Below are positions 2,470-52,801 of a DNA stretch of 64,000 bases, one piece after another. The DNA lies in assembly GCA_964036195.1 (NCBI GenBank), contig CAXIWS010000717.1, positions 1 to 64,000 of the forward strand. Direction: 5' to 3'. The notes under the pieces were generated by a model. It searched no databases, was not told where the DNA came from, and saw only the letters and a list, made by a program, of their open reading frames with translations. Within the stretch, counting starts at the first letter, position 1; every line of letters begins with the position of its first letter. The position numbers and the translations under genes were made by a program. Source of the DNA: Sphaerolaimus hirsutus. Its lineage: Eukaryota > Nematoda > Chromadorea > Monhysterida > Sphaerolaimidae.

Positions 2470-2487
2470 CTTACAAGGGTCTGGATG

Positions 2488-2690
2488 GCAGTCCCAGACC
2501 CTGTAAAATGCCCTGTAAAATGTAAAATGTCATGAAAGTGTCAAACGTCATGTAAAATGCCCTGCAAATTGGCAACCGAGTTGCCATTTTGCGGGGCATT
2601 TTACATACTCTTGACACTTTGCATGACATTTGAAATTCTACAAGAGATTTTACAGGATATGGGACTGACACCTGCCCCAATATCAGAAAC
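2488..2690. mobile_element. Introner-family foldback element
   Basis: Inverted repeat starting 'GGCAGTCCCAGACCCTG' and ending 'TTTTACAGGATATGGGACTG', with arms of 'TGTAAAATG' and 'CATTTTACA' units folding on a 'GGCAACCGAGTTGCC' centre. It has the same ends as the elements that form whole introns at 2884 and 25620. Shared with copy 2 at 42246-42430. Confidence 0.65.
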
Positions 2691-2883: not shown

Positions 2884-3261
2884 GTGCCACTCCCAGACCC
2901 TGTAAAAGACCCTGTGAAATGTCATGGGTCATGTAAAAGACCGTGTAAAGTGTCATGTGTCATGTGTGATGTAAAAGTCCCTGTAAAGTGCCATGTGTCG
3001 TGTGAAAAACCCTGTAAAGTGTATCCCTGTATGTATCCAAATCTTTTTTTTGTATCCAAATCTGATGATTTTGTATCGAAGTCTCACATTTCGGCAACAG
3101 ATTAGGATACAATAACAAAAGGTTTGGATATGATAAAATCAGACTTGGATACACATGACACTTTACAGGGTCTTTTACATGACATTTGACACATTACAGG
3201 GTCTTTTACATGACATTTGACACTTTACAGGGTCTTTTACAGGGTCTGGGAGTGCTCCCAG
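2884..3261 (+). mobile_element. Introner-like intron between exons A and B
   Basis: The whole intron, from GTGCCACTCCCAGACCCTG to CAGGGTCTGGGAGTGCTCCCAG, is one inverted-repeat element with a nested 'GTATCCAAATCT' palindrome core at about 3035-3160. GT-AG removal keeps the reading frame. The copy 2 version (42642-42978) is 41 bases shorter and inserted at the same place. The ends match those of the intron at 25620 and of dispersed copies at 33 and 37 kb. Confidence 0.7.
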
Positions 3262-5432: not shown

Positions 5433-5693
5433 TGACTAATTAAAACTAATTGGTCACTCTAATTAAGTCGTCTCGCGCGAAATTTCATTGGAAATTGCTT
5501 TTCACAGCCTGAGTCACACGCACGGGGTTACGGTAATACGGTTTTGGACGCAAAATCGTTAGTAGCGCGTGCATAAATACTTACGATTTTATAAGTACAA
5601 GTCACAATTAACGAAATATTTATTTTATTATTTTATTTCGTTCACAGCTAGCTACCACTTTGCTAATAAGCAATAAATTGATCAAACTTTGCT

Positions 5694-8600
5694 ATGGCCG
5701 ACGAACGCATACGCGCTCAGCGAGGCGCCGCCGCCGCCGCAGCTATGCCTGCGAGCAACGTTGATGAGTTCGACACAGCTCATCCGTTGACTCAGCATAG
5801 CCGGGCGTTGACTGGAGTGCGCAACGGAGTGCTGCGTTTCACATCCAAACCGATTCCTAAAATCGTCAAAGACGAGTCACAACCCGCCGCCGTCAACATA
5901 CGCGCGGCGGAGGAAGTATTAGAATTACTTCAGGCCTACGGCTACCAAGCCGAGATGAAACGCTCGGACCTGTCTATGGCTATGGACAAATTCACAACCA
6001 CTGTCCAAGATTACATCACAAGCCTAGACAGAGACGAAGACGGAGTAGCCGAGGATATAAAGAGCGCCAACGCCAAATTGGAGCGCGCGCTCTACTCGGG
6101 CTCGAACAACGCAATGATGCTCATGGATGAGCTGGAATCGAGGATTGCGTCCGCCCAAGCGCACATCAAATCCGCGGAAAGGTTGATACTTTCCTTGAAA
6201 GGTCAGTCCACTGTTGATTTAACTACTCAACCCCTTTCACAACCCCCTTACAATAATGTCAATATGGGAAGTAGTTCTCAACCTTCACAACCGGAAACTT
6301 TGTTAAAGTTACCTAAAATCGAGCTTGCTAAATATAACGGTGATCCGTTAGAATGGGCAGCTTGGTGGGAGATTTTTCGAGCTCAAATTCACGACCGAGC
6401 TAATTTGTCAATGGGTATGAAATATACATACCTCAAGCTCAGCCTTACCGGCCCAGCAGCAGAACTGCTAGCCGGATTAAAAGGTGATGGTCGAGATTAC
6501 ATCACAGCGGTCACCATGTTACAATCAAACTTCGGTGAAACGCATCGGGTACAAGCCGCCCTTTGGGATAAATTGTATTCACTTGAAAAACCTTCGTCAA
6601 GAGGAGACTCTCTCACAAATTTCACACGAACCCTTTTGTCAACTCTCAATCAACTTAAAGAAAGAGGTGAAAGTGTCGATTCTGGTGCAGTATTAAGAAT
6701 AATTCGTGGTTATCTTCCCGATAATATTGTTCTTGCCGTCACAGAAGAACACCGGAATTCGATGCGCACCGCTGTAACCGGCGACACCGAACTCACAGTC
6801 GTCAGGTTTGTCGATGCATTAACTACCATTGCTCGTGCTCGGTTAGACGCGATGAAAACTGAACAACAAAGTTCACAATCTTCAACTGTTGTTCAGAAAT
6901 CACAAAATTCATCGGTAAAAAAGCCACAAAATGGAGGAGGTTGGCAACAGCAAAAGAAAAAGGGAAATAAATCACAAAATACCTTTTCAAAACCAAAACC
7001 TATTCACAATACGGTTGCTTTTGCTGGTACCAACGCTAACGCTGGTAAATCACAAGGAAAAAATAAAAATTCCACTCAACCTCCCAGAACTCCGGCGATC
7101 GGAGCGATTAGTCAAAAGCAGTCCTCACAACCTGCGGCTAACTATCGCCAGCCGAAATTCGAGTGCTTGTTCTGCGGCGTCAAAGAGCACTACACAACCG
7201 ATTGCCCTCAATACGTCACACCGAGAGAGCGCACTGAACGGTTGCGAGCTTTGGGCGACGTGTGCACGCGCTGCACGCGCAGAGGCCATCAAGCGGCACA
7301 GTGCACTCAACAATTGAGTTGCTACTACTGTCGCCAGATTGGTCAGCATCACGGGGCGTTCTGTCCTACCCGACAGGCACCCGCCAGGCGTCAGGTAAAC
7401 AATTCACAAAATAAAGCCTTTGTCAAAGCAACGAGCGCTAATTTCGTCAACGCTCAGGTAATCACAACGGGTGCGGCGTCGTCACATGCACCGCCATCGT
7501 ATCCGCCTTCACATACGGAACCGATGAGCGTGTGTGTCATCCCACCGGACGAAAACGATTTCCGGTGGAGACAGAGTACGCTGTACCAGCTGGACATGGA
7601 CGGCCCGCTCGACATGGGCGAATGGCCGAGGCCCGCTAACGCACAACAGGCGAAAGCTCAGGAGGAAGCCCGCAAATATCACAGCGAGAACGAGCTGTGG
7701 ACGACGCTCCGTGCCAACCTCATCCAGGAAGGCACAGATATGGAGGCTGTCGAGGCCAAAATCCGTGGCTTCCAGCAGAAACGGTACGAGGTGTACCCAC
7801 ACCTCAACCCGAATCAAATGTCATCGTCGGTGCCACTTCAACCTAGTCACAGGCCCACGGTGGAGGTGCTGAGCGCACAGGCGGGTTACGGTAACCCCAA
7901 CCCCGCTACCAGGCAGCAGGCCGAACAAGAATGTGAGTTCGATTTTGCACCTATTGTTCGTTTGCAAGTGGCCCAGGCTTCATTAATTAATAAAGACGCT
8001 GAATTAAATCGAGTCACAGACCCTTTGTTAATATTCTTTGACACTGGATGTGAATATTCATACATTAAAGCATCCGTGGCAAATGAGTATAACTTTGAAA
8101 ACAAAGGAGATGTTGTTCTTCAAATGAACGTGTTTGCAACAAAAACGCCCGTCACAGTCAATACGTTTTTGGTCGAGGCTGTCATGCCTATTTACAAACA
8201 CGTTGACAATAAGGGCAATATGTTACAAATTCCGCTCACTTTACGTGCAGTGGATAATTTGGCAACATATGCATGCCCACCTCCTTTGTCACAAGACGAC
8301 AAAACAGTCATTTACATTGTGTACGGTGAACATGCACAAGAACAATTCGCGGAACCGCTTGAATTGACCGAAATGACTGATGAGTTTTGTCACAAACTAT
8401 GTCAACCAGATGTAGTCATTGGTCAAGACTACTACTGGAAGTTCGACATTCGACCAACAGAAATCGAACTCCCATCTGGATTGATCATAGTCGAATCAAT
8501 ACTTGGATTGATGCTTGGCGGAAATGCGTCATCACAATCATTTGTCACAACACCCGACATTTCACCACATCAATTCATGGTTTCATGCAGTTCACATGCT

Positions 8601-11600
8601 TCATCAGCTGTTGCTGTTGGCCAAGAGACATTATTTCAATTTCACAGTCTCGAGTCAATAGGTATCACAGATGATCCATTATCACATGATGACGACATAG
8701 CTGAACAGTTAATTCTGGAATCAATTACTCTTGATCCAGAAACTGGTCGCTATAGCGTAGATTGGCCATTCAAATCAACAATTCAAGAATTGCCAACCAA
8801 CAATGCAGAAGCATTTCGTCGCTTTCTGTCACTGTTGAAACGGTTTCGAAAAGATCCCGATTTATTCACTACATACGCGAAAGTCATCTCAGATCAACTT
8901 CACAAGGGGGTCATAGAACCCGTCTATGGTTCACAAGATGGCTTGCAAGAACACATCTTACCTCACCAACCTGTCCTCACACCTGGCAGATCGACAACAT
9001 GTCGAATAGTGTATGATGGTTCTGCAGGTAAGCCAAGTCTCAATAATTGCTTATTCCGAGGCCCAGTTCTCACACCACTGGCACTCGGATTAATGCTTCG
9101 CTTCAGAGCCGGAAAAGTGGTGTTGTTAGCCGATATTGAGAAAGCATTTTTACAAATTGCTCTTCACCCAAAATCACGCGCTTTCACAAAATTTTACTGG
9201 CTGCGTGATGACACCATTCCATCTCATGAAGACAATATTCAAATGATGCAATTCACAAGGGTGCTGTTTGGTCTCACATGCAGTCCATCCATTTTGTCAA
9301 CCGTCATCAAATATCACCTAGAAGAAGAACTAGCTCACATGCATCCCGCTGAGACCAATGAACGAATGAAACTGGAGCTGTTGCTCAACAGCATTTACGT
9401 TGATAATTTAGTTATCAGCGTAGACGATGACAAATATGCAATACAGCTCTATCGTTTAATTAAAGCTGTTTTTGCCAGAGCAAATTTCAACATGCGCGAA
9501 TGGATGACAAATTTGCCTATGGTCTCGGAGAAAATCAAACCCGATGACCTCAACCCGAAAAAGTCACAATATATCAAAGTAATGGGTCTCGTTTACGATC
9601 ACATTGAAGACACCATTGCAGTGCCAGCTCCCAAGAAAGATTTCACGCTCATTGTCACAGCCACTCGTCGCAATTTAAATAAATTGCTGGCTTCAACATA
9701 CGATCCTATTGGTGTCACAGCACCCGCGTTATTTCGGTTGAAATTTCGCGTGTCACAAATAATTCAAAGGTGCAATATCACAACCTGGGATGAACTCATT
9801 GAAGACCCAGAGGCGGATGACTTACTAGACGATTTAAAAAGACACCTCTCGTCCATAAGTCAAATCAAATTCCCGCGCTCATTTCACTCTTTTGGCATCG
9901 ATGTCAAAGCTGTCACAAGGCCATTAGAGTTACATGTGTTTTGTGATGCATCAAAAGATGGATACGCCGTTTGCGCTTATTTGCGTCAAAAAGCGATTTC
10001 ACCTGACGAATACGGTTATGAAGATGACCGATATTTTAGTGGTTTTCTCACAGCTCGCACAAAACTAGCCCCACTTCCGTCAAAACAAGGTCAACCCCTC
10101 ACAATCACACGCTTGGAATTGCTAGGTGTCACAATTGGTGCACAGCTCATCGATTATTTACATCATGAACTCGTTGAGCTGGGTGGATGGAAAATTCACA
10201 GTAATTTCCTCTGGACCGATAGTACAGTTGTCATCGGCTGGCTATATACTGCAAAGCCGCTGGCTACTTTTGTCAACAATCGGGTCACAAAAATCCACTC
10301 ACTAATGTCAAAACATTGCATTCAAATTTGCAAGGTTGCTACAAAAGACAACCCAGCCGACATCGTGTCACGGGGTTGTACTTTTGATCAACTGATGATC
10401 GAAACAATGTGGTTCACCGGACCCACATTTTTAGCTGAACCTCTCACATCAACCATGCTTGACATTTCGCAATATCAAGCGCAACCTGTCACCGAAGAGC
10501 TTGCGAAAGGCGACATTCACATCAGTCGACCTTTATACGCTGGAGCAGTAACTTCACAGCCCGTTTCACAGCCTGATTCACAACCAGCTAATGCTCTTGC
10601 ACAGCAAGTACCTGTCAACTTGGACCCCAATTTGTCACAAAATGTCACTCCTCAAAATCCGTTTGTCGAAAGTCGACAACGTCACATCCCTTCAAATCCA
10701 TTCGAAATCGACATTCGACGATTTTCAACACTGTCAAAATTGTTGCGTACTGTCGTATACCTGCTTCGTGTCAAAACATATTGGCTAAATCGCTCCATGC
10801 ACAAGGCTGCAAAGCGCGAAAGCGAATATTTATCAAAACCCATCACACAAGCTGATTTGAACGAAGCATTTCGACATGTATTGCGCATTTCACAGGCAGA
10901 GGAATGTGCCAGTTGCATTTCACAAGCGCAACTTGGCAAACACCACATGCTCAAATGGGACGCGTGGAATAATTTATTATATTGTGTCACGCGTGTATCT
11001 CACAAAGAACACAGAAACCCTTCGTTGTTTTACTACCTGCCAAAGACCGGGTGGTTAACAACGCTAGTGGTTACTCATTTTCATGAGCTTGCTGGTCACA
11101 GTGGCATGCTTCACACTTTAGCAGATTTACGCGAACACTGCTGGTTGTCAAGTGCCAAGCAGGTAGTTGCAAAAATTTTGCGAAAATGTGTCACATGCCG
11201 CAAAGCGGAAGGAGGTCCATTCACATTACCTGATTTTCACACATTACCTGTCACTCGAACTCAATCACAAATCAAGCCATTTCAACATATTGGCATTGAT
11301 TATATGGGACCGTTAGTTTATTCACAAAACGGAACCCGTCACAGTCAACACATTTTGTTACTAACATGCTTCAGTACACACGCCATTCATTTGGAGTCAA
11401 CTAATAGTGTCTCGACAGCCGACACAATTATGGCTCTAAATCGTTTTATTTCACGTCGAGGCATGCCGGACACAATTTGGTCCGACAATGCCCCTGCATT
11501 CAAAAATTGCGTCAAAATGCTACCGGACGTAAAATGGCATTTTATCACAGCCAATAGTCCTTGGCAGGGCGGCGTGTACGAACGCATGGTAGGTTTAGTC

Positions 11601-14600
11601 AAACGCTTGCTCAAAAAAGCATGCGGACGACGTTGTCTCACATGGCATGAATTTCTCACAGTCATGCTTGACGTCGAATTCTCCGTCAATACGCGACCAT
11701 TGTCATACTTGTCAAACACAGACATTGGTGCAGCGATACTGCGCCCAATACATTTTCTTTGGGGCACCCCACCTCCATGTTACATGGATGAAAAACGTGA
11801 GTTGGAACTCGATTCCACCACGATTGAACCCATGCGAAAAATTCCAAAAGAAGAATGGGAAAGAATGACGGATGGATCTTTCAACCTCACACCCTCACAA
11901 ATCGAAAAAACCTACACACTCACACCCCCACGTGTCAATGACGTCAACTGCATTGACGAAATTGCACTCAACTCTGTGCCTGAAAAGGACAGAGATGACA
12001 TCACATTACTTTGGGACCAAATTCGTCACAATCGTGAAGTGCTTTGGTATGAGTGGTCACATCAATACATTGACCTACTCAAAGATCGAGCTAAAAATCA
12101 ACGCTTGAAAAAAGGCACAATCAATGAAGCTCCCAAACGTGGCCAAGTAGTGTTAATCACAGATGATAAACAGCCACGCGGCATGTGGCAAATGGGCCGC
12201 GTTCACGAAATACACGTGTCAAGCGATGGCAAAATACGCGCAGTCACAGTACTGTCAAGTAACGGCCGTCGCACACGTAGATCTCCATCTAACCTAGTGC
12301 CTCTTGAAATCGACACAGAGGACGGTGTTGAATATAAAATCGACACTGAGGTAAAGGATGATGATAATTCACAGCCTTCACCTGATAAGGGTGATGATTC
12401 ACAAACTGATAAATCACATCAACAATCACAATCTTCACAGCAAGATGCAAGACGCGCAAACCCACGTCGAACATGTCGCTATACTGGCACATATTCGTTC
12501 TGGGGAAACGTGTCGCATTTAATGGCGCTTTCGTTGCTAATACAATCAAAATTAGCCAACGCGCTCACATGGACAGATCAATATCACAAAACTTTTAATC
12601 TGTGCCATAAAACACGCACTGGGCACGCAATACAACTTCCAGAAAAAGTAACATGTCACTTTCCTCAAGTCACAGCCATAGAGGATATTGTGGTATCCAT
12701 ATGGACGTTGCGTGTTCAGCCACAAACAACACCAATTTATAGATGCTTTCAACAAGAGCATACTATAGTCACGTATATGAGTCTGGTGGGCGGAAAAGCT
12801 ATGCTACCACCAGAAATCATTAAAAATCACAGAGTCACAACCTACGATTGCATGATCGCCTACCAAAATAAAACTTGGAAAGGCGAACCCTTAATAAAAA
12901 TCGGTCATGCATTGTGGAGCACTAACAAATCACTTCACATCGATTATTGTTACTTTTGTCACAATCTGAGTAACACAGTAATGAACTTTCACATAGAGGA
13001 AGGTGTGGTCGCAAGTCTTGACGGAAAGAAAATAGTTTCCGAAATTCAAGATCTATCACATTGCAACCCACAAGCCGGCTATTGTTATGACAGCGACAAT
13101 GGCGTTTCTTTATGGAATGCTACCGCATTTAACAAGCAGTGTGCATTCCAAGAAATTGGTCAATTTGATGCGCAATATTCACAAAATCATTACATAGTGG
13201 AAAAATTGCAAGCTGCATTTTCTGTCACATGGAGATCACAACAATTCCCAAATAATGCAGAATGCGTGCCAAAAGACGCAAAATATATTGACCAGGGCTC
13301 GGCATTCATTCAATTTCTTCGATATCAACTTAAGAAATTGAAAAAGCCTCCAACCGAAAAAGCTCCTCTTCATTTCAAACTCGCACCAAATCTTGATGTT
13401 GGTGTATTTCACTTGCTCACAGCTCGTCAACAATATGAAGTTGACAAAATTGCACATCTAGAACAAAAACAATTTGGATCTATCTGGCAACAATTATGTC
13501 ACATCCGTCAGACCCAACTAGATATAATTCATGCAATTGTCACATTCAATCCCACACTTGGCTTGCGAGCATTGCTAGGACGTCAAAATCTCTATGCTGA
13601 ATGGCATGGAGATATATTAATGTTCTGGGATTGTAAACCAGTCACAGCAGAAATTATTTATTTTCAACACGAATATAACAATACTTGTTATAAATTTCTG
13701 CCGGTCAAAATCACAAATCACCCACATATTATGTTCGTTGCTCCTGGCACCAATGATCTGATCACACATTCACCAATAGATCATTGTCTCATGAAAGATC
13801 ACAAATATTATCAATTAAATGATAATTCATGGGCCAACGAAAACGGACCAACGAATTTGCACGTCACAAAACTCCCAATCGAATTAATTTGGGCTGGCTC
13901 GTGGAAACCATTCACACTAAATGTTTCCGGGTCACCAGGTGTAAGCATGACTGATATTGCATTCAGTATCATGGCGGCACATCATCACTTTCAAAATTTG
14001 CAACGACTCGAACAACAAGTCACACGTTCAGTCGATTATATTGCAACGAAATCCAACGATCCTAAAGCAGTGCAAGCATATATTGCTGGCATCGGCCAAG
14101 GGGTTGGTGCATATTTTGAAGGTGTAGGAAAAGAATTGGGTCACATCATTCACGGTAGTGTCACAGGTGGTGCGTCTGCATTAGACACGTTACTTACTGG
14201 GCCACTTCAAACAGCTGTGAACATCATACTCATTATTATCACAATTGCTTGTATTGGGTATATTGGTTATGTTTACATGCAGTGGCGGCTCGTAACCGGC
14301 AGGGGTATGCTGCCAGACATCAAGGGCTTTTTCCGAAGAAAGGGCAGAAGGGACAGAAGCCCAAACAACAGGGGCTCCCGTCCGTTCAGCAAGGAAAAAT
14401 CGGTAAGCGACGGCGACGTAACCGCCAGAAGAAACCGACAAGTGGCTTCAACAAACCCGCTTTGTCAAATCAAACCGTCACACAATCGTCAAGTTCGTCA
14501 CAGTTATCTTCAAAGTTTGTCACACCCCTCAAACGAGTTTCTCCATTCAAACGGCTTTCAGGACGCTCGGTACAGCCTAGATCGGATCCCCCGGTCGGTT

Positions 14601-15413
14601 ATAGTACCGAACGCGCCGAAGAAATCGAAATGGAGACGGGTGCGCGCCGGGTCACAAAACCTGCACCCTCCTGCGAGTCACAACCGCAGAGCTCGTCACC
14701 AAACGCCAGACTCACAGTCACCGAGCCTGTCACAACGGAAGTCACAATGGAAGACGCGATCCCTGACCGCGAGCCCTTGCAAAAGCAACTCAAGAGATTC
14801 GCTGGAGTCGCAGGGCTCCCAGGTGAGCAGAAATCGTCACACCAAACATTTTCCTTTATACCCCAAACTTTTCACAAATTCAATAACATCAATCAAAAAC
14901 TGGTCAAATCAAAAGTTAAACGATCTAAAAAGATCTGTGACCTTCCTCAAACAAACACCTTCACAGTCCGACATAGAGCTCGGAGAGATGGAAGAAAGTC
15001 ACGATCAAGAACTAGATCCCCCACCGTACCATTTGACCAATTCAACTCAATCACTTCACAGTGTACGACCTCATTCACAACCTCCCATGTCCCCTTGCTA
15101 TCAAGCCAACCGCTTGCAGCATCGGAGCAATGGCAGCCCACCGAGTCGTCGACGACGATCATCGACGAGACCGACGCGCTCCGACAGGCCTTCGAGAGGC
15201 TCGCCGAGGAATCGGAGAAGCTCCCCAACTGGCCGGGAAGACCAGCGGGGGCCCCAGAAGACCAGGCGCCCGGACACGGGGAAGGCAGCCAGCCTGAGGA
15301 GGATGCCGTCGAACCCATGGACGAGCATCATGAGGAGGGCCGGGAAAATGCCGGCGTCGAAGACGCCGACGATCTGCTACCACAGGAGTGATGAGAGCAT
15401 CACAGGCGTTTGA
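5694..15413 (+). CDS. BEL/Pao Gag-Pro-Pol-Env polyprotein, 3239 aa
   Basis: One frame encodes all proteins needed for replication and integration. Gag has a Pao-type domain (about 204-350, LPKIELAKYNGDPLEW) and three CCHC-type zinc knuckles (about 490-556). The aspartic protease has FFDTG (D783). The RT (about 1073-1300) has D1147 and YVDN at 1235-1238, with Asn in place of the usual second Asp. RNase H has D1418, E1475 and D1509. The integrase has H1797/H1802 with C1832/C1835, then D1869, D1931 and E1963 (D-x31-E). A DUF5641-like C-terminus lies at about 2145-2210. An envelope-like part starts near a hydrophobic stretch at 2277, has many cysteines and N-glycosylation sequons, then a glycine-rich stem (about 2805-2840), a membrane segment (about 2842-2864) and a 375-residue basic tail with PPPY at 3109-3112. 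The start ATG at 5694 follows the leader, and no stop or frameshift is seen. The Pol calls are secure; the Env class is not. Confidence 0.93.
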   Translation: MADERIRAQRGAAAAAAMPASNVDEFDTAHPLTQHSRALTGVRNGVLRFTSKPIPKIVKDESQPAAVNIRAAEEVLELLQAYGYQAEMKRSDLSMAMDKFTTTVQDYITSLDRDEDGVAEDIKSANAKLERALYSGSNNAMMLMDELESRIASAQAHIKSAERLILSLKGQSTVDLTTQPLSQPPYNNVNMGSSSQPSQPETLLKLPKIELAKYNGDPLEWAAWWEIFRAQIHDRANLSMGMKYTYLKLSLTGPAAELLAGLKGDGRDYITAVTMLQSNFGETHRVQAALWDKLYSLEKPSSRGDSLTNFTRTLLSTLNQLKERGESVDSGAVLRIIRGYLPDNIVLAVTEEHRNSMRTAVTGDTELTVVRFVDALTTIARARLDAMKTEQQSSQSSTVVQKSQNSSVKKPQNGGGWQQQKKKGNKSQNTFSKPKPIHNTVAFAGTNANAGKSQGKNKNSTQPPRTPAIGAISQKQSSQPAANYRQPKFECLFCGVKEHYTTDCPQYVTPRERTERLRALGDVCTRCTRRGHQAAQCTQQLSCYYCRQIGQHHGAFCPTRQAPARRQVNNSQNKAFVKATSANFVNAQVITTGAASSHAPPSYPPSHTEPMSVCVIPPDENDFRWRQSTLYQLDMDGPLDMGEWPRPANAQQAKAQEEARKYHSENELWTTLRANLIQEGTDMEAVEAKIRGFQQKRYEVYPHLNPNQMSSSVPLQPSHRPTVEVLSAQAGYGNPNPATRQQAEQECEFDFAPIVRLQVAQASLINKDAELNRVTDPLLIFFDTGCEYSYIKASVANEYNFENKGDVVLQMNVFATKTPVTVNTFLVEAVMPIYKHVDNKGNMLQIPLTLRAVDNLATYACPPPLSQDDKTVIYIVYGEHAQEQFAEPLELTEMTDEFCHKLCQPDVVIGQDYYWKFDIRPTEIELPSGLIIVESILGLMLGGNASSQSFVTTPDISPHQFMVSCSSHASSAVAVGQETLFQFHSLESIGITDDPLSHDDDIAEQLILESITLDPETGRYSVDWPFKSTIQELPTNNAEAFRRFLSLLKRFRKDPDLFTTYAKVISDQLHKGVIEPVYGSQDGLQEHILPHQPVLTPGRSTTCRIVYDGSAGKPSLNNCLFRGPVLTPLALGLMLRFRAGKVVLLADIEKAFLQIALHPKSRAFTKFYWLRDDTIPSHEDNIQMMQFTRVLFGLTCSPSILSTVIKYHLEEELAHMHPAETNERMKLELLLNSIYVDNLVISVDDDKYAIQLYRLIKAVFARANFNMREWMTNLPMVSEKIKPDDLNPKKSQYIKVMGLVYDHIEDTIAVPAPKKDFTLIVTATRRNLNKLLASTYDPIGVTAPALFRLKFRVSQIIQRCNITTWDELIEDPEADDLLDDLKRHLSSISQIKFPRSFHSFGIDVKAVTRPLELHVFCDASKDGYAVCAYLRQKAISPDEYGYEDDRYFSGFLTARTKLAPLPSKQGQPLTITRLELLGVTIGAQLIDYLHHELVELGGWKIHSNFLWTDSTVVIGWLYTAKPLATFVNNRVTKIHSLMSKHCIQICKVATKDNPADIVSRGCTFDQLMIETMWFTGPTFLAEPLTSTMLDISQYQAQPVTEELAKGDIHISRPLYAGAVTSQPVSQPDSQPANALAQQVPVNLDPNLSQNVTPQNPFVESRQRHIPSNPFEIDIRRFSTLSKLLRTVVYLLRVKTYWLNRSMHKAAKRESEYLSKPITQADLNEAFRHVLRISQAEECASCISQAQLGKHHMLKWDAWNNLLYCVTRVSHKEHRNPSLFYYLPKTGWLTTLVVTHFHELAGHSGMLHTLADLREHCWLSSAKQVVAKILRKCVTCRKAEGGPFTLPDFHTLPVTRTQSQIKPFQHIGIDYMGPLVYSQNGTRHSQHILLLTCFSTHAIHLESTNSVSTADTIMALNRFISRRGMPDTIWSDNAPAFKNCVKMLPDVKWHFITANSPWQGGVYERMVGLVKRLLKKACGRRCLTWHEFLTVMLDVEFSVNTRPLSYLSNTDIGAAILRPIHFLWGTPPPCYMDEKRELELDSTTIEPMRKIPKEEWERMTDGSFNLTPSQIEKTYTLTPPRVNDVNCIDEIALNSVPEKDRDDITLLWDQIRHNREVLWYEWSHQYIDLLKDRAKNQRLKKGTINEAPKRGQVVLITDDKQPRGMWQMGRVHEIHVSSDGKIRAVTVLSSNGRRTRRSPSNLVPLEIDTEDGVEYKIDTEVKDDDNSQPSPDKGDDSQTDKSHQQSQSSQQDARRANPRRTCRYTGTYSFWGNVSHLMALSLLIQSKLANALTWTDQYHKTFNLCHKTRTGHAIQLPEKVTCHFPQVTAIEDIVVSIWTLRVQPQTTPIYRCFQQEHTIVTYMSLVGGKAMLPPEIIKNHRVTTYDCMIAYQNKTWKGEPLIKIGHALWSTNKSLHIDYCYFCHNLSNTVMNFHIEEGVVASLDGKKIVSEIQDLSHCNPQAGYCYDSDNGVSLWNATAFNKQCAFQEIGQFDAQYSQNHYIVEKLQAAFSVTWRSQQFPNNAECVPKDAKYIDQGSAFIQFLRYQLKKLKKPPTEKAPLHFKLAPNLDVGVFHLLTARQQYEVDKIAHLEQKQFGSIWQQLCHIRQTQLDIIHAIVTFNPTLGLRALLGRQNLYAEWHGDILMFWDCKPVTAEIIYFQHEYNNTCYKFLPVKITNHPHIMFVAPGTNDLITHSPIDHCLMKDHKYYQLNDNSWANENGPTNLHVTKLPIELIWAGSWKPFTLNVSGSPGVSMTDIAFSIMAAHHHFQNLQRLEQQVTRSVDYIATKSNDPKAVQAYIAGIGQGVGAYFEGVGKELGHIIHGSVTGGASALDTLLTGPLQTAVNIILIIITIACIGYIGYVYMQWRLVTGRGMLPDIKGFFRRKGRRDRSPNNRGSRPFSKEKSVSDGDVTARRNRQVASTNPLCQIKPSHNRQVRHSYLQSLSHPSNEFLHSNGFQDARYSLDRIPRSVIVPNAPKKSKWRRVRAGSQNLHPPASHNRRARHQTPDSQSPSLSQRKSQWKTRSLTASPCKSNSRDSLESQGSQVSRNRHTKHFPLYPKLFTNSITSIKNWSNQKLNDLKRSVTFLKQTPSQSDIELGEMEESHDQELDPPPYHLTNSTQSLHSVRPHSQPPMSPCYQANRLQHRSNGSPPSRRRRSSTRPTRSDRPSRGSPRNRRSSPTGREDQRGPQKTRRPDTGKAASLRRMPSNPWTSIMRRAGKMPASKTPTICYHRSDESITGV
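12522..14283 (+). other. Envelope-like glycoprotein region of the BEL polyprotein
   Basis: Follows the integrase C-terminal domain. It begins with a signal-peptide-like stretch (MALSLLIQSKLANA), continues with a cysteine-rich ectodomain of about 540 residues carrying several Asn-X-Ser/Thr sites, then GIGQGVGAYFEGVGKEL and similar glycine-rich sequence just before the membrane anchor. A glycine-rich pre-membrane stem is typical of class III fusion glycoproteins (herpesvirus gB, chuvirus G). BEL elements with captured viral envelopes are known. Which viral family donated this one is inference. It is probably cleaved from the polyprotein or made from a spliced mRNA. Confidence 0.6.
14249..15391 (+). 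CDS. Overlapping 380-codon ORF in BEL 3' end, Rev/Rex-like layout
   Basis: Open in the -1 frame relative to the polyprotein for 1143 bases, ending 22 bases before the polyprotein stop. Residues 53-62 are an arginine-rich stretch (KRRRRNRQKK) like the RNA-binding/nuclear-import motifs of retroviral Rev, Rex and Tat. Residues about 310-320 (LRQAFERLAEE) resemble a leucine-type export signal but lack the last hydrophobic residue. The last 60 residues are very acidic and have GC-rich, natural-looking codons, while the polyprotein frame there reads as repetitive Arg/Ser. An acceptor-like TTTACATGCAG ends at 14282, so splicing could give access. The nearest slip-like site is an imperfect CTTTTTC at 14327. 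Function is inferred from composition only. Confidence 0.5.
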   Translation: MYWVYWLCLHAVAARNRQGYAARHQGLFPKKGQKGQKPKQQGLPSVQQGKIGKRRRRNRQKKPTSGFNKPALSNQTVTQSSSSSQLSSKFVTPLKRVSPFKRLSGRSVQPRSDPPVGYSTERAEEIEMETGARRVTKPAPSCESQPQSSSPNARLTVTEPVTTEVTMEDAIPDREPLQKQLKRFAGVAGLPGEQKSSHQTFSFIPQTFHKFNNINQKLVKSKVKRSKKICDLPQTNTFTVRHRARRDGRKSRSRTRSPTVPFDQFNSITSQCTTSFTTSHVPLLSSQPLAASEQWQPTESSTTIIDETDALRQAFERLAEESEKLPNWPGRPAGAPEDQAPGHGEGSQPEEDAVEPMDEHHEEGRENAGVEDADDLLPQE

Positions 15414-15494
15414 TTTTGATTGTTTCACATCAATTTGCCGAGATTGGCTGAGATAAAATTAAATTAAATTTAATTTTTATTCTAGTTTCGGGAG
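15414..15494 (+). other. BEL region between polyprotein stop and 3' LTR
   Basis: Short AT-rich spacer. The expected polypurine tract next to the LTR is weak (only CGGGAG at 15489-15494), which is unusual for an otherwise intact element. Confidence 0.5.
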
Positions 15495-16596
15495 TGTGTA
15501 ACATTATCGTAAAATGTAAAAACCTATAATATTTAAGTTAACTTTCTTAGGTTCGCTTTTATATTTAGTTAATTCAATTTATTACGATTCCATTTATAAT
15601 TCACATTCCATTTCTTAACATCTTCACATTCGCCATTTAATATCTCAAGCGATGTTGTTTACAACGTGCGCTTCACATCGCTCACATATTTAGATCTTAG
15701 TCATTGCTCACATTCCGCCACATTTCCTTGACAAGCAGCACGCAAATACGCTGTCATGTTTATGTTAAGCGGCGGGCCCGCCCCGAGCGGGGGGCCGGGC
15801 CCGCGCGCCATTTCAAATGCTGTCTGGCTTGTCTCACATTTTCACTATCTTGCCAGTTTAGCTCGCTTTTCATCGGAGAAGCGAGCGGGCAAGGATTGAA
15901 CTTTCACAATTGGAAATGTTGGGTAAAAAATCGGAGATTAGAGCCGACCGATTGGCGCCAAACCAATCGCCATCGGTCTGGCCCTTAAAAGCCGATTTCA
16001 CAGCTAAAATCGGGAGTGTTTGCAACCTCGTCAACTTCACACGAATCTCTTCCTAGGATCTAAATAAGCGCCGTAGTCACTTTATTAAGTCGCTTGTTTT
16101 TGGTGCTAAGTTTAACGCTTGGTGCTTTAAGTCACCTCAGTGCTTTATTTCACACCAGCGCTGTTTGAGGTGCTTTATTCACAACCGCGCCACTTAATTC
16201 TCGCCTTTTGTCGTAATTAAGTGCCTTCTTTTAATTGCCTTATTTCTCCGGTAATTAGAGCTTCTTTTACGTTTTGTTTAAGTAATTAATTTAGTTGTAA
16301 ATTAATTCCTTTGTTTACGTATATTTTTATATATATTTTATTTACATTTAATTCTTTGCATTTAATCGCCTAAATAAAAACGTTCGTCAAAACCTTTGGT
16401 AAACAATCTAAATTTGCTTCACACTAACTCACGTCAATTCACTTCAACTCAACTAATCACATTTGATAAAATAACGGAACGTCAACTAGAGACGACGCTT
16501 CACGTCAACTTACACTTGTTCACATTTGTCCTCTTCCTCGGTTAGGAATAGGAGCTGGTTCACAAGTCACTTCAACAAGTTCCGTATTATTTTACA
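15495..16596 (+). repeat. BEL 3' LTR
   Basis: 1102 bases, the same length as the 5' LTR and offset by 11181. The single mismatch I found is at 15752 (T, against C at 4571). AATAAA at 16373 is the likely polyadenylation signal. Followed by the target duplication CGGTA at 16597-16601. Confidence 0.95.
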
Positions 16597-17846
16597 CGGT
16601 ATATTTGAATACTTCAAGTATTTTCTTTATCATTTCCATATTTGTATCCTGTACTTCAGTAAATATATCCATTAAAAAAATATTTAAAAACACATTATCT
16701 ATTGTCAATTTCATTATCTATAATTGTTTGCATATTATGTAAATGTCTCAACGTGCAACGGGCTAAAAATAATGTGTGATGAGCGCAAAATTGAAAAAAA
16801 TGACTGCAGCGAAAATGGCAGACAATAACAAGACTATGTCAGCACTAGTGCTTGGCACCAGGGTTCAATTAAAGTTTTTTATTTCATTTTCAGGATTAGC
16901 ATTCGAAAACATCACCGATTTTTTGGAAAATATATATAAATATATCACTCCAATATTGGAAAAAATATAAATATATATAAATCACTCTAGGTCTTCAGAA
17001 AATATAATTAAATTACTGAAAAAATAACTCTAAGCTCAAAAAAAATCTCAAAAAATCACTTGCGCTTTATTTCAATTTCAAGCAATATTCTGGGCTTTAT
17101 TTACCATTTGCAAGCACAAAAAATGTACTCTAAGATACAACAGTCCATTTATTTTCATTCCACAAGCAGTATTCATTTATACAATATTTTACAAGTGAAA
17201 ACATCAAGTAAATATCACATAAAAAATTCAAACTTCAGTTGAACCTCAATGAAAACTTCAAAAATATTTTACACTGCAAATGTTTAGCACTCAACCTTTA
17301 GTGCCTGGTTGTGGATGTTTGACTAAATAGGTGCTCATGCTCAGACTTTTTCAATGATGTGCTGTGAAAACTCATTTTTGGACACATGGCTACATTTTGG
17401 CAACACTGTGACAACAGTAGTGGCATTGGTGACACCATGGTGACAGTTTTCCACAGTGGTTCCCCATATTTGAAAACAGCTGACATTGGAGCATGTCACC
17501 AAGCATCATCCATTTTCAAAAATGGTAAACTGAGCTTTCAATCACTGTAGATAAATTTTGAACACATCAAATTGGTATTTTTTGATTCAAAGTCATGTTT
17601 TATTTCAGAAAAATATGTTATAAGATAGAGAGATGCTTTATACCTAAAACATAACCATAGAATTCATAGCAGGATGACTTAACAAAAAGTTACTAAAACA
17701 GTTTACATTTTTGTCACATACAAAATGAACAGTAAATTGATGGTGATGTCACCATTTGTCATCATTTGAGTTTGAGTTGTGATCAAACTAGTGATTTGCC
17801 AACACCACCCCACCAAAATTCATGCCATTTGTGAAAACTGAACATA

Positions 17847-24849: not shown

Positions 24850-24989
24850 GGCCCTCAACTAACAAGTCGCTTGCCCAATTCCCGCTACACTGGCTACATC
24901 GTGATCGGGTTCAAACTGCTCACGCCCGACACCAAGAAAAGCCTGGAGGAGTGCTGGATGAATTGGACCGGTGCCAGCGATATTTACAA
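24850..24989 (+). CDS. Host gene exon G (copy 1)
   Basis: Acceptor TGCCCAG, donor GTGAGT, leaving phase 2. Reads ...RYTGYIVIGFKLLTPDTKKS... to ...WTGASDIYK. It looks like a folded domain (hydrophobic strand followed by a charged helix). Both differences from copy 2 are synonymous. Confidence 0.75.
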
Positions 24990-25554
24990 GTGAGTGACAG
25001 GTTGAGGGGCTTGTATTTATACTCGGCGTACCTGATACTCTGCCCTCGCACTGATTTATGTCTCGTGTTGGAAGCGTGCCAATGATTATTTAATCATGCG
25101 ATTTCCATAAAAAGATGAAAAAATTTCATCGATGTGAATATGTCAAAGAATAACATTATAACAACCATCAATTTTGTCATCTTTTTATGAAACTCACACG
25201 TGTTAGCCATTGTTGGCACACTTCCAACGGGAACCACGCGTGCAAGGTGTCAAGTAACCGGATTATACTTGTCACTTGTCTTGTGCTCACACAAATGTCA
25301 AGTTTCCATGGAAACAATTAGACTGCCCAAAATGGTTTTTAGAAAATTGGGAGCCACTGCCAAACATTGTAAAATGTTGTATAGTATGTGAATGTCATTA
25401 AAGTGTCATATAAGTCATGTAAAATATCATTTAAAATGTCAAATTTCATGCAAAGTCATGTAAAATGTCCTGTAAAATTTTAAAAATCATGCAAACTGTC
25501 AACAGTCATGCAACATGGTTAAAAGTAAAACGTGACACCAAAAACCACCCACAG
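24990..25554 (+). other. Intron G-H with foldback, copy 1
   Basis: Contains an inverted repeat at about 25055-25230 (GTTGGAAGCGTGCCAA near the left, TTGGCACACTTCCAAC at the right) that copy 2 lacks, then decayed TGTAAAATGTCATG units of the introner family. Part of the same foldback recurs at about 28496-28530. Confidence 0.55.
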
Positions 25555-25619
25555 ATACAGCCCGGCAAAATGGCAACTCCTTCGCATTACCCTTCACTCG
25601 AGCACCAAACCCGCCCCAG
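25555..25619 (+). CDS. Host gene exon H (copy 1)
   Basis: 65 bases between acceptor CACCCACAG and the introner-type intron. Reads KYSPAKWQLLRITLHSSTKP. It ends ...CCA G in phase 1 and joins exon I as ...APGIDELAY.... The one difference from copy 2 (CGC/CGA) is synonymous. Confidence 0.75.
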
Positions 25620-25869
25620 GTGCCAGTCCCAGACGCTGTAAAAAGCCCTGTAAAATGTCAAATGTCATTGTCAATCAAATGTTCAAAATGTAAAATGTAA
25701 AATGGCAAATGTCATGTCAAATGGCAAATTGTTAAAAGTCATGTAAAATGCCCTGCAAAATGGCAAACGTAAGTTTGCCATTTTGCAGGGCATTTTACAT
25801 GACTTTTAACACTTTACATGACATTTTACATTTTACAGGGCATTTTACAGGGTGCGGGATTGCCTCCAG
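25620..25869 (+). mobile_element. Introner-like intron between exons H and I
   Basis: The 250-base intron is one hairpin element: GTGCCAGTCCCAGACGCTG at the GT end, CAGGGTGCGGGATTGCCTCCAG at the AG end, and a 'GCAAACGTAAGTTTGC' centre. CCAGGT is present at both borders, so donor and acceptor may come from the duplicated target site. GT-AG removal keeps the frame. Copy 2 has the same intron, 48 bases shorter, at 51735-51936. Confidence 0.8.
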
Positions 25870-26000
25870 GTATCGACGAACTGGCCTACGTGCTCCTGTG
25901 CGAGTACGGCAACGTGTTGCACCCGTCCAACGTTTTACATGCTTTCGATATGGTTGAAAGATTGAGATTGAGGGCTTGTGGATGTGTGGGCTTGTATAAG
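25870..26000 (+). CDS. Host gene exon I (copy 1)
   Basis: Reads GIDELAYVLLCEYGNVLHPS through ...AFDMVERLRLRACGCVGLYK, phase 1 in and phase 0 out at GTTGGG. All five base differences from copy 2 are synonymous, the best evidence in the window for a maintained protein. I cannot name the family. The intron to exon J (26001-26707) carries a copy-specific MITE. Confidence 0.8.
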
Positions 26001-26140
26001 GTTGGGGGAGGGGTTGGGGGTGTTTTTGGCGCTGGCGCCAGAGGGTGATTAATGATTTTCATGTGGCAAATTAGTTGTCAGTCTGAACATTATTTGCCAC
26101 TAATGATGGCCAACCTTCTGATATAAAAGTGTTTATTTTT

Positions 26141-26889: not shown

Positions 26890-26903
26890 ACACCCTACTC
26901 AGG
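26890..26903 (+). CDS. Possible host micro-exon K (copy 1)
   Basis: Fourteen bases (ACACCCTACTCAGG) between acceptor TTTTTAG and the GT of an introner-type element; identical in copy 2 at 52580-52593. It would add GHPTQ in phase. This short exon is supported only by phase and conservation. Confidence 0.4.
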
Positions 26904-27106
26904 GTGCCAGGCCAGTCCTGTAAAGTGTCAAGTCAAATGCCATGTAAAATGTAAAATGTCATGGAGAATGTCATACAAATTTGTCAATTGTCATGTAAAG
27001 TGTTAAAAATTTAACAAAAACAATTTTTTCTCTCTTTTGATTGACATTTTACCTAACATTTTTTACATTTTACATTACACTTTACAGAGTGTGGGGCTAC
27101 ATCCAG
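26904..27106 (+). mobile_element. Third introner-like intron (after exon K)
   Basis: Starts GTGCCAGGCCAGTCCTGTAA and ends CTTTACAGAGTGTGGGGCTACATCCAG; the arms of TGTAAAATG/CATTTTACA units fold back. The next exon (from 27107, reading GLYCFVGHICP) is uncertain because it runs into a foldback element. Copy 2 equivalent: 52594-52801. Confidence 0.55.
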
Positions 27107-29246: not shown

Positions 29247-29509
29247 CGGTTGACTGGTGGTAATCCCAACCCCTGTAAAGTGTCAAGTAAAGTGTCAAAT
29301 GTAAAGTCAAATGCAAAGTCAAATGTAATGTTAAGTGTCAATTGTGTATTTTTTGTATCCAAATCTTATTTTTCGACATGACATCGATTTGGATACAAAA
29401 TAATAAGATTTGGATACAAAAAAAGAAGATTTGGATAAACAATTGACACTTTACTTTACATTTGACTTCACATTTGACACTATACTTTACAGGGCTTGGG
29501 ACCACCCCC
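29247..29509. mobile_element. Introner-family element at 29.2-29.5 kb
   Basis: Ends GTGGTAATCCCAACCCCTG and CAGGGCTTGGGACCACCCCCTG with a nested GTATCCAAATCTTAT palindrome. ACTGGT is found at both borders, but the right side lacks AG at that point (the nearest is GGTTCAG), so splicing here is uncertain. Open sequence continues to stops at 29556-29604. Confidence 0.55.
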
Positions 29510-30385: not shown

Positions 30386-30387
30386 GG

Positions 30388-30531
30388 GCACTCGCAGACC
30401 CTGTAAAAAGCCCTGTGAAATGTCAAATGTCATGCAAAGTGTCAAAAGTCATTGAATATGCCTTGCAAAATGGCAACCGAGTTTACACTTTACACTTTAA
30501 AGCCTTACACTTTAAAGGGTGCGGGACAAAG
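30388..30531. mobile_element. Short, decayed introner-family element
   Basis: Starts 'CTCGCAGACCCTGTAAAAAG', ends 'CTTTAAAGGGTGCGGGAC'. The right arm is degenerate. I see no exon on either side. 30532-30950 has no identifiable feature. Confidence 0.5.
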
Positions 30532-30949
30532 ACCTGAATGATAGACGTTGGCAATTGAAGTCACAGAAAAACTGTGCGAACAGCGCTTAACATTGCCCGA
30601 CAAATGCTCAATTGTTGGGTAAATTGCCCGACAAAAACTAAATTCTCGGGTCAATTGAATGTCGATCATGGCCGCCGTGCAGAAACTAAAAACGCGCAAT
30701 CCCGTGGAAAAAATAGTTTATCGGCGCGATAAGTCTTCAGTTTGGCCATTGTAAAATTGCAAATTTATTACCGGGCTACTGATTTTTGCGCACGGCAGGG
30801 ATTATTTTCGACAACAAAAATTTTATGCAGGGTGTCTGTTTTTTGAGTGCTGGATTTTTACCAGCCTTTACAGTTTTCCGGTGATGGTTCAGTAATTCAA
30901 AAAATTTGTATAATCCGCTGACCGCATGCTATGCATGCATTCTCATTCT

Positions 30950-33129: not shown

Positions 33130-33454
33130 GTGCCACTCCCAGACCCTGTAAAAAGCCCTGCAAAGTGTCAAAAGTCATGGAAAAGTCCCTGCAAAATGGC
33201 AACTCGGTTGCCATTTTGCAGGGCATTTTCCATGACTTTTGACACTTTGCATGACATTTGACATTTTCCATGGCTTTATACACTTTGCATGACATTTGAC
33301 ATTTTCCATGACTTTATACACTTTGCATGACATTTGACATTTTCCATGACTTTATACACTTTGCATGACATTTGACATTTTCCATGACTTTATACACTTT
33401 GCATGACATTTGACATGTTGCAGGGCTTTTTACAGGGTCCGGGACTGCCCCCAG
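33130..33454. mobile_element. Introner-family element, 325 bp, possible intron
   Basis: From GTGCCACTCCCAGACCCTG to CAGGGTCCGGGACTGCCCCCAG, with GT and AG at its exact ends after ...TGCAG. The right arm contains four tandem 'CATGACTTTATACACTTTG' units. An open exon-like segment starts right after it. Confidence 0.65.
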
Positions 33455-35865: not shown

Positions 35866-36640
35866 TGGGGCACTCACAGACCCTGTAAAAAGCCCTGTAA
35901 AATGTCAAATGTCATGCAAAGTGTCAAAAGTCATGGAAAATGCCCTTGGAAAATGGCAAACAAACATTGACACTACCATTGACTTCTGACATTGACATCT
36001 GACATTTTACAGGAAGTTTTACATGACTTTTGACACTTTGCATGACATTTGTCATGTTGCAGGGCATCTACATAACTCAGCCACTTTGAATGACACTTCA
36101 CATTTTACAATGCATTTTACAGGGTCTGGGAATAGCACCTGGTTGCAACCGAGTTGCCATTTTGCAGCGCATTTTTCATGACTTTTGACACTTTGCATGA
36201 CACTTGACATTTTACAGAGATTTATACAGGGTCTGGGAGTGGCACCACATGTGCCAAGGGCGGCACATAAAGGAAAGAGCCAATGGCGCTTACTGCCACT
36301 ACAAGACCCTGTAAAATGTCCTGTAAAATGCCAGACAATGTGTCAAATGTCATGTGATGTAATCATGTAATCATGTAATCATGTAATCATGTAAAATGTC
36401 ATGAAATGTAATCATAAGTTTCGAAAGTCATGTAAAATGTCGTGTAAAATGTAAAATGTCATGCTAATCATCAAAAAGTCATCTAAAAAGCTCTGTAAAT
36501 GTAAAATGTCATGTAAATTGTCAAAAGTCATGTGAAATGTAAATTGTGTAATTGTTTTATGCTTTTGTCATTTTCACAAAATTTTACATGACTTTTGTTA
36601 CTTTGCATTGCATTCGACACTTTACAGGGTGTGGGATCAT
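35866..36640. repeat. Cluster of introner-family elements
   Basis: At least two overlapping or adjacent copies: 35870-36142 (ends CACTCACAGACCCTG / CAGGGTCTGGGAATAGCACC), a right half to 36245, and another from 36303 to about 36640 with TCATGTAATCATGTAATC tandem units. No in-phase exon pair was found. Confidence 0.6.
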
Positions 36641-36914: not shown

Positions 36915-37114
36915 CCTGGTGCCATTCCCAGACCCTGTAAAAAGCCCTGTGAAATGTCAAATGTCATGCAAAGTGTCAAAAGTCATGGTAAATGCACTGC
37001 AAAATGGTAACTCGGTTGCCATTTTGCAGGGCATTTTCCATGACTTTTGACACTTTGCACGACATTTGACATTTTACAGGGCTTTAAACAGGGTCTGGGA
37101 GTGCCTCCTGGTGC
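36915..37114. mobile_element. Introner-family element with clear 8-bp target duplication
   Basis: CCTGGTGC occurs at 36915-36922 and 37107-37114, directly bordering CATTCCCAGACCCTG and CAGGGTCTGGGAGTGCCT. This is the cleanest target duplication for the family. The right copy supplies TG, not AG, so this insertion would not splice as GT-AG at the duplication. A 27-codon open stretch follows at 37111-37191. Confidence 0.7.
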
Positions 37115-38175: not shown

Positions 38176-38494
38176 CAAGTTTGTGGCAAAATTACCCTAA
38201 AATCTAATTACCCCCTTTAATTAACCCCCACCATCAAAATACCCCCAGGTTTGAGCGAGCTGGGGAAATAATACCCCCCCCCCCCCCAAGTACCCCCACC
38301 GAAATATTGAGTGTGAAGAAAAGGTACATGATGGTGAATCGGTATCCATTTTAGAAGTATTTTAATTTTAAACGCTTCAAGTTTCTCTTATCACATTTTG
38401 TTCCTGGACAAAAATAGCACCAAGCTCTAAAAGCATGGTACTTTCAAAGTCGTGGTGCTAATGGTTTTTGAATTGGCCCTAACACCAGGTGCCA
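38176..38494. other. Short intergenic stretch with MITE fragments
   Basis: Runs of C (38275-38290) and 'AATACCCCC' units belong to decayed CCGTATTT-type MITEs. Nothing else seen. Confidence 0.4.
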
Positions 38495-38655
38495 GTCCCA
38501 GACCTTGTAAAATGTTAAATGTCTTGCAAAGTTTCAAAAGTCATGTAAAATGCCCTGGAAAAATGCAACCCTGTTGCCATGTTGCAAGGCATTTTACATG
38601 ACTTTTGACACTTTGCATAACATTTCACATTTACACGGTCTGGGACTGCCCACTG
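38495..38655. mobile_element. Introner-family element, short
   Basis: Left end ACCAGGTGCCAGTCCCAGAC, right end CACGGTCTGGGACTGCCC, centre 'GCAACCCTGTTGC'. No exon is evident on either side. Confidence 0.55.
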
Positions 38656-39802: not shown

Positions 39803-40002
39803 NNNNNNNNNNNNNNNNNNNNNNNNNNNNNNNNNNNNNNNNNNNNNNNNNNNNNNNNNNNNNNNNNNNNNNNNNNNNNNNNNNNNNNNNNNNNNNNNNN
39901 NNNNNNNNNNNNNNNNNNNNNNNNNNNNNNNNNNNNNNNNNNNNNNNNNNNNNNNNNNNNNNNNNNNNNNNNNNNNNNNNNNNNNNNNNNNNNNNNNNNN
40001 NN
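39803..40002. other. Assembly gap, 200 N
   Basis: Exactly 200 unknown bases, a conventional scaffold-gap length. The true distance and even the adjacency of the two sides are unknown. ORFs spanning it have no meaning. Confidence 0.98.
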
Positions 40003-42641: not shown

Positions 42642-42978
42642 GTGCCACTCCCAGACCCTGTAAAAGACCCTGTAAAATGTCATGTGTCATGTAAAAGAAT
42701 GTGTAAAGTGTCATGTGTGATGTAAAAGTCCCTGTAAAGTGCCATGTGTCATGTGAAAAACCCTGTAAAGTGTATCCCTGTATGTATGCAAATCTTATTT
42801 TTTTGTATCCAAATCTTATGATTTTGTATCCAAGTCTCACTTTTCGGCAACAGATTTGGATACAATAACATAAGATTTGGATATGATAAAATAAGACTTG
42901 GATACACACTTTACAGGGTCTTTTACATGACATTTGACACTTTACAGGGTATTTTACAGGGTCTGAGAGTGCCCCCAG
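42642..42978 (+). mobile_element. Introner-like intron A-B (copy 2)
   Basis: Orthologue of 2884-3261, 337 bases, GTGCCACTCCCAGACCCTG to CAGGGTCTGAGAGTGCCCCCAG. The ends have stayed intact while internal repeat units were gained and lost. Confidence 0.7.
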
Positions 42979-51734: not shown

Positions 51735-51936
51735 GTGCCAGTCCCAGACGCTGAAAAATGCCCTGTAAAATGTCAAATGTCATGCAAACTGTTAAAAGTC
51801 ATGTAAAATGCCCTGCAAAATGGCAAACGTACGTTTGCCATTTTGCAGGGCATTTTACACAACTTTAGACACTTAACATGACATTTTACATTTTACATTT
51901 TACAGGGCATTTTACAGGGTGCGGGATTGCCTCCAG
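51735..51936 (+). mobile_element. Introner-like intron H-I (copy 2)
   Basis: 202 bases, GTGCCAGTCCCAGACGCTG to CAGGGTGCGGGATTGCCTCCAG, folding on GGCAAACGTACGTTTGCC, a perfect palindrome at the centre. Orthologous to 25620-25869. Confidence 0.8.
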
Positions 51937-52450: not shown

Positions 52451-52593
52451 GTAAAATGCCCGACAAATTACCCAGACCTCAGCTTTCATTGATTGTGATT
52501 CATTTGACATGAGTTTTTATTAGCCCGACATGTGGTTGTCGGGCAGCCCGATTTATGTTTGTGTTTTTGATATCTTTAGACACCCTACTCAGG

Positions 52594-52801
52594 GTGCCAG
52601 TCCTGTAAAGTGTCAAGTCAAATGTCATGTAAAATGTAAAATGTCATGGAAAATGTCATACAAATTTGTCAATTGTCATGAAAAGTGTTTTATCACTCAA
52701 TTTAACAAAAACATTTTTCTTTTTTTCTCTTTAGATTGACATTTTACATAACATTTTATACATTTTACATTGCACTTTACAGAGTGTGGGACTACATCCA
52801 G
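52594..52801 (+). mobile_element. Third introner-like intron (copy 2)
   Basis: Orthologue of 26904-27106; GTGCCAGTCCTGTAAAGTG to CAGAGTGTGGGACTACATCCAG. Confidence 0.55.

Follow-up and report, generated by a model that had tools for sequence, protein, structure and literature searches.

The stretch analysed here, called the window (64,000 nucleotides), covers the initial 64 kb of a scaffold of 71,296 bp (contig CAXIWS010000717.1) in the assembly of the nematode Sphaerolaimus hirsutus (GenBank accession number GCA_964036195.1; 348 Mb, 762 contigs). Diverged, similar copies of one locus, designated copy 1 and copy 2, lie on both sides of a run of exactly 200 N at 39803-40002. These are probably two haplotypes brought together in scaffolding, a tandem duplication being less likely, because DUF7153, the Pfam family encoded at this locus, was found nowhere else in the assembly in a profile search at E 0.001. 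Copy 1 carries an LTR element at 4314-16599, presumably BEL/Pao-like from its sequence, with LTRs that are 99.8% identical; it has no counterpart in copy 2 and is a recent insertion. Conversely, pol frames at 53824-59461, which we take to be Ty3/gypsy-like, have no counterpart in copy 1.

The DUF7153 gene was followed across three exons, and homologs were not found in a large protein set at the thresholds used. The second and third exons are separated by an interval that appears to consist of a single repeat element, as follows.

24853..24989, + strand: preceding DUF7153 exon (DUF7153 profile, copy comparison)
24990-25554: intron after the preceding exon, bounded by ordinary GT-AG sites and enclosing a family copy that is not exact
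25352..25541 (approx.), no strand given: the degenerate, non-exact family copy within that intron
25555..25619, + strand: upstream DUF7153 exon, frame YSPAKWQLLRITLHSSTKPAP (DUF7153 profile, copy comparison)
25617..25619, + strand: left CAG target-site copy, the last bases of the upstream exon
25620..25869, + strand: predicted intron, copy 1 (DUF7153 match through the junction, synonymous-only differences, hairpin z -16)
25620-25866, + strand: element within this intron (GTGCCAGTCCC...GGGATTGCCTC)
25867-25869, + strand: right CAG target copy
25870..26004 (3' limit unfixed), + strand: downstream DUF7153 exon, GIDELAYVLLCEYGNVLHPSNVLHAFD...GLYKV (DUF7153 profile, copy comparison)
51735..51936, + strand: copy-2 version of the 25.6-kb intron

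The borders of the 25.6-kb interval read CCAG/GTGCCAGTCCC...GATTGCCTCCAG/GTATCG, slashes marking the predicted splice junctions. Against the DUF7153 profile the single exon pieces gave 43 bits, no match and 44 bits, while the joined exons gave 117 bits and covered profile positions 66-170. Between the two locus copies 8 of 110 codons in these exons differ, all synonymously, and the intron carries indels. Retention of the element would bring in-frame stops into the gene. A sequence-only reading of this DNA had proposed that 25620-25869 is a whole-element intron, and with the joined score, the synonymous-only differences and a hairpin z of -16.0 it is well supported that this interval would be an intron made end to end of one foldback element. 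In the preceding intron, an insertion at 25010-25265 of copy 1 is missing from copy 2.

The same reading had placed two more introns of this kind, at 2.9 and 26.9 kb.

2884..3261, + strand: probable second exact intron, left flank CCG and right flank CAG (in-frame join, exon conservation, hairpin z -20)
42642..42978, + strand: copy-2 version of the 2.9-kb intron
26903..27106, + strand: full family copy flanked by CAG, without coding flanks
52593..52801, + strand: copy-2 counterpart of the 26.9-kb element

At 2884-3261 the borders are canonical, the joined frame is intact and the element folds into a hairpin; the joined exons matched no domain, and this is probably a second exact intron, with moderate support. 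Its flanking exons show 3 differences in 237 coding bases between copy 1 and copy 2, one synonymous and two within one changed codon, and one more amino-acid change lies at 2783, just 5' of this exon part, if the exon extends there. The element at 26904-27106 is complete, but it lies past the end of DUF7153 and its flanks gave no convincing reading frame, so that its description as an intron was not upheld. In both locus copies the elements and their ends were otherwise where they had been reported, the introns at 25620-25869 and 2884-3261 starting with GTGCCA and ending with CAG.

Further family copies, including the six announced at 29.26, 30.39, 33.13, 35.87, 36.92 and 38.49 kb, are present in the window (approximate limits, listed without strand, each with its left/right flanking trinucleotides).

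2484..2674: CTG/CTG, located 5' of the 2.8-kb exon
29258..29508: CTG/CTG
30387..30532: TTG/CTG
33130..33451: CAG/CAG
35868..36138: ATG/CTG
36919..37107: CTG/CTG, site of the earlier 8-bp repeat
38489..38651: CAG/CTG

Allowing up to 4 mismatches, the inner 19-bp end motif occurs 35 times in the window, counting both strands, internal repeats and both locus copies, and 0 times in each of five one-strand Markov controls. One terminus of the element reads GTGCCA and the other, read inward, GGGGGCA or GAGGCA. In copy 1 the introns at 25620-25869 (z -16.0) and 2884-3261 (z -20.2) each form a single hairpin along nearly their full length, leaving 2-4 bases unpaired at the start and 6-7 at the end. 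Another family of short repeats, in which GTGAAGTG/CACTTCAC abounds, was seen at 21342, 23657, 27216, 47372, 49711 and 52911.

A search of the whole genome for the element ends had been proposed, and with up to 2 mismatches the end motif was found 5342+5233 = 10,575 times in the assembly, against 0 for a reversed-pattern control. Exact left ends, with any middle base in the flanking trinucleotide, numbered 2558 and exact right ends 2261. Three samples of copies were then used. Set A comprised the 38 best relatives of the 25.6-kb element, of which 36 were used (those dropped were L028, a copy that could not be parsed, and L016, apparently the locus already represented by L010). Sets B and C were drawn from contig C1. 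For set B, 20 copies were hand-picked at roughly even steps from the 100 exact CAG copies listed, and 17 of them had both ends; for set C, 20 were taken from the 43 exact CTG copies listed, 19 of them with both ends. Both family ends were present in 72 fetched copies, and the commonest donor-to-acceptor length among fetched copies was 195 bp. The family had also been called active or recently active. This was not borne out: the comparable part of the window holds five family copies, all common to both locus copies, and full-length genome matches to the 25.6-kb element were 77-80% identical among the matches listed.

The flanking trinucleotides disclosed the nature of the target. In ten complete window copies (a paired copy at 36.3-36.6 kb, with ends lacking CWG, was excluded) the left and right trinucleotides share their middle base in 8 cases (permutation p 0.024) and are identical throughout in 6 (p 0.06). 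In the near-random genome samples a left CAG was matched by a right CAG in 14 of 16 copies and a left CTG by a right CTG in 16 of 18 (Fisher p 5e-7, two pairs with other trinucleotides excluded); this count leaves out L082, L096, L098 and L111, which have no right end, and the near-duplicates L095 and L116. Set A, which was picked by similarity to the 25.6-kb element, has identical trinucleotides on both sides in 22 of 36 copies, its mismatched pairs including five CTG/CAG and two CAG/CTG. A 3-bp duplication of CWG is the best reading of the target, and C before and G after this unit would be favoured. Duplications of 8 bp (CCTGGTGC) and 5 bp (CCWGG) were considered and rejected, since the middle-base pairing and the genome samples favour 3 bp. 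The 8-bp repeat noted at the 36.9-kb copy is real, but the unit duplicated across copies is the 3-bp CWG, and the 6-bp border duplication reported at 25.6 kb gives way to the same unit. The AG and GT of the splice sites had both been ascribed to the duplicated target; this holds for the acceptor CAG, while the donor GT is part of the GTGCCA terminus of the element. Four copies with CGG in place of CWG lie within 40 kb at C1:7822043-7861758 and are perhaps a local duplication.

The position of the copies within genes was determined by joining the flanks as CWG/GT...CWG/ and comparing 50 of the joined copies, translated in sense, with Pfam (set A, 24 of 36; set B, 16 of 17; set C, 10 of 19); for seven hand-picked loci (L012, L015, L026, L029, L097, L115, L117) the joins were also compared with PDB sequences. 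Homology running through the junction was found in 10 of the 50 joins tested, two of which (L031 and L038) are weak matches below the Pfam cut-off.

L015: WD40, Pfam match through the junction
L038: ASC channel, Pfam, 0.1 bit under the cut-off
L039: UVB_sens_prot (RUS), Pfam, 79/79 positions gapless
L031: WD-repeat, weak Pfam match
L094: COMM domain, Pfam
L115: Srx-type GPCR, Pfam
L117: E1 dehydrogenase/BCKDHA, Pfam and PDB sequence
L026: UNC13A, 110 gapless residues, PDB sequence only
L012: syntrophin PDZ, PDB sequence only
L097: PRPF8, PDB sequence only

The other 40 tested joins had no match through the junction; at L010 and L035 matches stop at it, and the PDB sequence search returned nothing for L029 and L115. 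L029 and L089, presumably CLPTM1 and a SIRT6-like gene, were kept out of the homology count. In the near-random sets 4 of 36 copies (26 tested) showed junction homology, which is a floor; scaled to the 2558 exact ends it may correspond to roughly 280 introns, and since few proteins are covered by Pfam and PDB the real number could exceed this. A family of many predicted introns, alike up to both splice boundaries, was recognised by homology. In a 10-kb stretch of PRPF8, whose exons were identified visually, an exon is split by one family copy and the other exons are parted by non-family sequence; a second copy further along has the opposite orientation and could not be placed within the gene. 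Elements, if retained, bring in-frame stops in all 22 loci examined. In keeping with an animal host, the genes recognised include UNC13, syntrophin-like and Srx-type GPCR sequences.

Coding potential was also scored from codon usage, for each flank separately, after training on 14 recognised loci with the tested locus left out. The two flanks agreed in strand and phase at 29 of 70 loci, with 11.7 expected (p 9e-7), and the agreeing loci comprised 22 in sense and 7 antisense, the latter being at chance level. With a stricter score on both flanks 6 of the 70 loci qualified, 5 of which agree, 4 in sense. Antisense joins compared with Pfam gave 0 matches in 10. Open-frame length was tried as an objective test and set aside, as it separated true from shifted and antisense joins weakly: frames of at least 40 codons across the join occurred in 21 of 36 true joins of set A (15 and 11 when shifted, 20 antisense) and in 12 of 16 of set B (7, 7 and 7 for the shifted and antisense joins). 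The sense bias of the GT end bears on whether the element leaves the DNA rather than the RNA, by somatic excision with a transposase-like machine, as with the internal eliminated sequences of ciliates. Such excision would provide the exact removal needed at both CAG and CTG flanks, yet it should ignore the direction of transcription, so that the 22 to 7 distribution speaks against it, and we consider it very improbable.

Paralogs in the same genome pointed to the direction of change. A search with the L115 protein revealed four GPCR paralogs (L123, L124, L126 and L127) that lack the intron and match L115 gaplessly over its junction. One more paralog, L125 (C6:12040480-12041320), has a family insertion of its own, 380 bases long, located 7-8 codons upstream of the L115 site and bordered by CCAG/GTGCCA...CCCCCAG/CACT; after removal of the insertion, L125 aligns gaplessly across the junction with its intronless neighbour L124. 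On these alignments the family is to be read as inserted into exons, twice, within one gene family, and exon insertion with intronless relatives, as expected of introners, was found in this one family. The proposal of an introner family derived from an inverted-repeat DNA element in an animal has gained from both the genome-wide evidence and these paralogs. The copies could instead be ordinary MITEs that settled in older introns, their exact borders being coincidental, and some do lie within larger introns or in DNA without coding signal (at 25.35 kb in the window and at several sampled loci). This explanation is extremely improbable, given that the copies end exactly at both splice sites in genes unrelated to one another, that the join carries the target duplication and that intronless paralogs exist.

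With the family, its CWG duplication, its exact frame-restoring position in several conserved genes, its orientation bias and the intronless paralogs observed, our main reading, to which we give a probability of about 0.88, is that a non-autonomous foldback DNA transposon with thousands of copies inserts at CWG and becomes an intron when it lands in sense at CAG. The element would insert into the trinucleotide CWG and duplicate it. When it lands in an exon at CAG, with its GTG end upstream, the pre-mRNA would read CAG/GT...CCCCCAG/, the spliceosome taking the donor GT from the element and the acceptor AG from the duplicated CAG. Removal of the element with one target copy would restore the original reading frame, and folding of the intron into one hairpin would keep both splice sites together. 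Removal at the RNA level by the spliceosome is the presumed route, and a NuwaI-type (PHIS) transposase the presumed mover. The left flank of the copy at 2884, CCG and not CAG, was counted against this reading.

Copies flanked by CTG need separate consideration, as they would end in TG, which is at odds with simple GT-AG splicing. CTG/CTG copies lie in frame in BCKDHA (L117), in a pair of Srx-type GPCR genes 16 kb apart (L115 and L116) that have intronless paralogs, in the syntrophin PDZ gene (L012) and, as a weak match, in the WD-repeat gene (L031), and each of these carries in-frame stops if retained. Two explanations offer themselves: TG ends may be accepted although AG is favoured, or the CTG copies are damaging alleles. 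The first would extend the main reading to the exact removal of CTG insertions, the 3' end being set by hairpin geometry more than by AG. Besides the gene contexts just named, it draws on the diverged ends of L012 (3 mismatches at both) and L031 (4 at one), which do not look fresh, and on left ends that show CAG and CTG at similar frequencies (46 against 43 in the first 100 listed). Against it, right ends have CAG more often than CTG among the first 100 listed (62 and 36, p 0.011; the difference between left and right, p 0.14, is not significant), as if AG were preferred, and the five set A copies noted above have CTG on the left and CAG on the right. We hold this extension as a tentative possibility. 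That the CTG copies in exons stay unremoved, as null or pseudogene alleles in a single assembly, with introns formed by CAG copies only, accords with the non-canonical nature of GT-TG splicing and the mild AG excess at right ends, and one assembly cannot give an allele frequency; four gene contexts (one weak), including the GPCR pair, the intact frames on both sides and the divergence of some copies count against it, and we regard it as a slightly less likely possibility than the extension. Going further, it may be speculated that this animal removes transposon-made introns with AG or TG ends, defined by the hairpin and the GT end, and that a transposon of NuwaI type, inserting at CWG, gave rise to hundreds to thousands of such self-erasing introns across its genes. 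What defines a 3' splice site is put to a sharp test by the TG-ended copies that lie in conserved genes.

Foldback MITEs are short, non-coding elements of very high copy number, with terminal inverted repeats that span nearly their full length. All these traits, together with a target-site duplication, are found in the family described here, but part of its copies lie exactly between coding exons in sense orientation. CAG/G is the classical proto-splice site, and the CWG target offers a simple reason for new introns to arise there, namely the transposon's own target sequence. Euglenid non-conventional introns likewise have a strong hairpin joining the intron ends and variable borders; the present family differs in its GT 5' end and its transposon source with CWG duplication. 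Horizontal transfer of introners was reportedly the subject of a 2025 study.

Introners, according to the part of the literature consulted, are families of alike introns whose likeness extends close to both splice sites and which arise where transposons insert into exons; TIRs and TSDs are present in many of them, and some draw splice sites from the TSD (PMC9860276). The family reported here shares the exon-insertion origin, the likeness up to the splice sites, the TIRs and the TSDs, and differs in duplicating CWG, in taking the donor from the element and the acceptor from the TSD, and in having TG-ended copies in genes as well. Intron birth by transposons is thought to be rare in animals because the survey of Gozashti et al. 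(2022), in the part available, found introners in only two animal groups (PMC9860276). With a family as large as this, and with intronless paralogs alongside it in one genome, the birth of introns can be observed directly in an animal, and the element is, from genomic comparison, a likely source of brand-new introns.

NuwaI, of the PHIS (PIF/Harbinger-ISL2EU-Spy) superfamily, is described, in the portion of the source at hand, as making 3-bp CWG duplications, with TIRs usually starting with GGG; it was reported only from animals, and its autonomous elements are about 4.5 kb (PMC4482050). The 3-bp CWG duplication is common to both. NuwaI TIRs usually begin with GGG, whereas here one end has GGG or GAG and the other GTG; given the NuwaI-like GGG at the former, one G-to-T substitution at a terminus could have converted a MITE into an introner. 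Autonomous NuwaI copies encode a DDE transposase and a Myb/SANT protein, while a transposase was not seen in the present family, and the portion of the NuwaI description at hand does not mention a role in introns (PMC4482050). In the open-licence PMC texts, as far as these could be covered, the pairing of introners with Harbinger elements appeared in fungal work only.

An autonomous partner was not found in the two Harbinger-type transposase families examined; 150 of 306 first-look transposase candidates were scored, and a partner may have been missed. At least 163 PF13359 (Harbinger-type) matches occur in the genome, and the copies examined carry other ends. For the abundant family, 12 of 30 fetched loci were scanned without finding an introner-family end, its own ends being different, and for the second family one 5.5-kb stretch held no pair of matching ends. 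Among the Harbinger-type loci L051-L080, 28 of 29 fetched were 96-99% identical to L063 over the aligned stretch and the 9 looked at have the termini GGCCCC[AG]CGCACACTAGTTTACTGGC; this set is a recent burst of an element other than the introner family.
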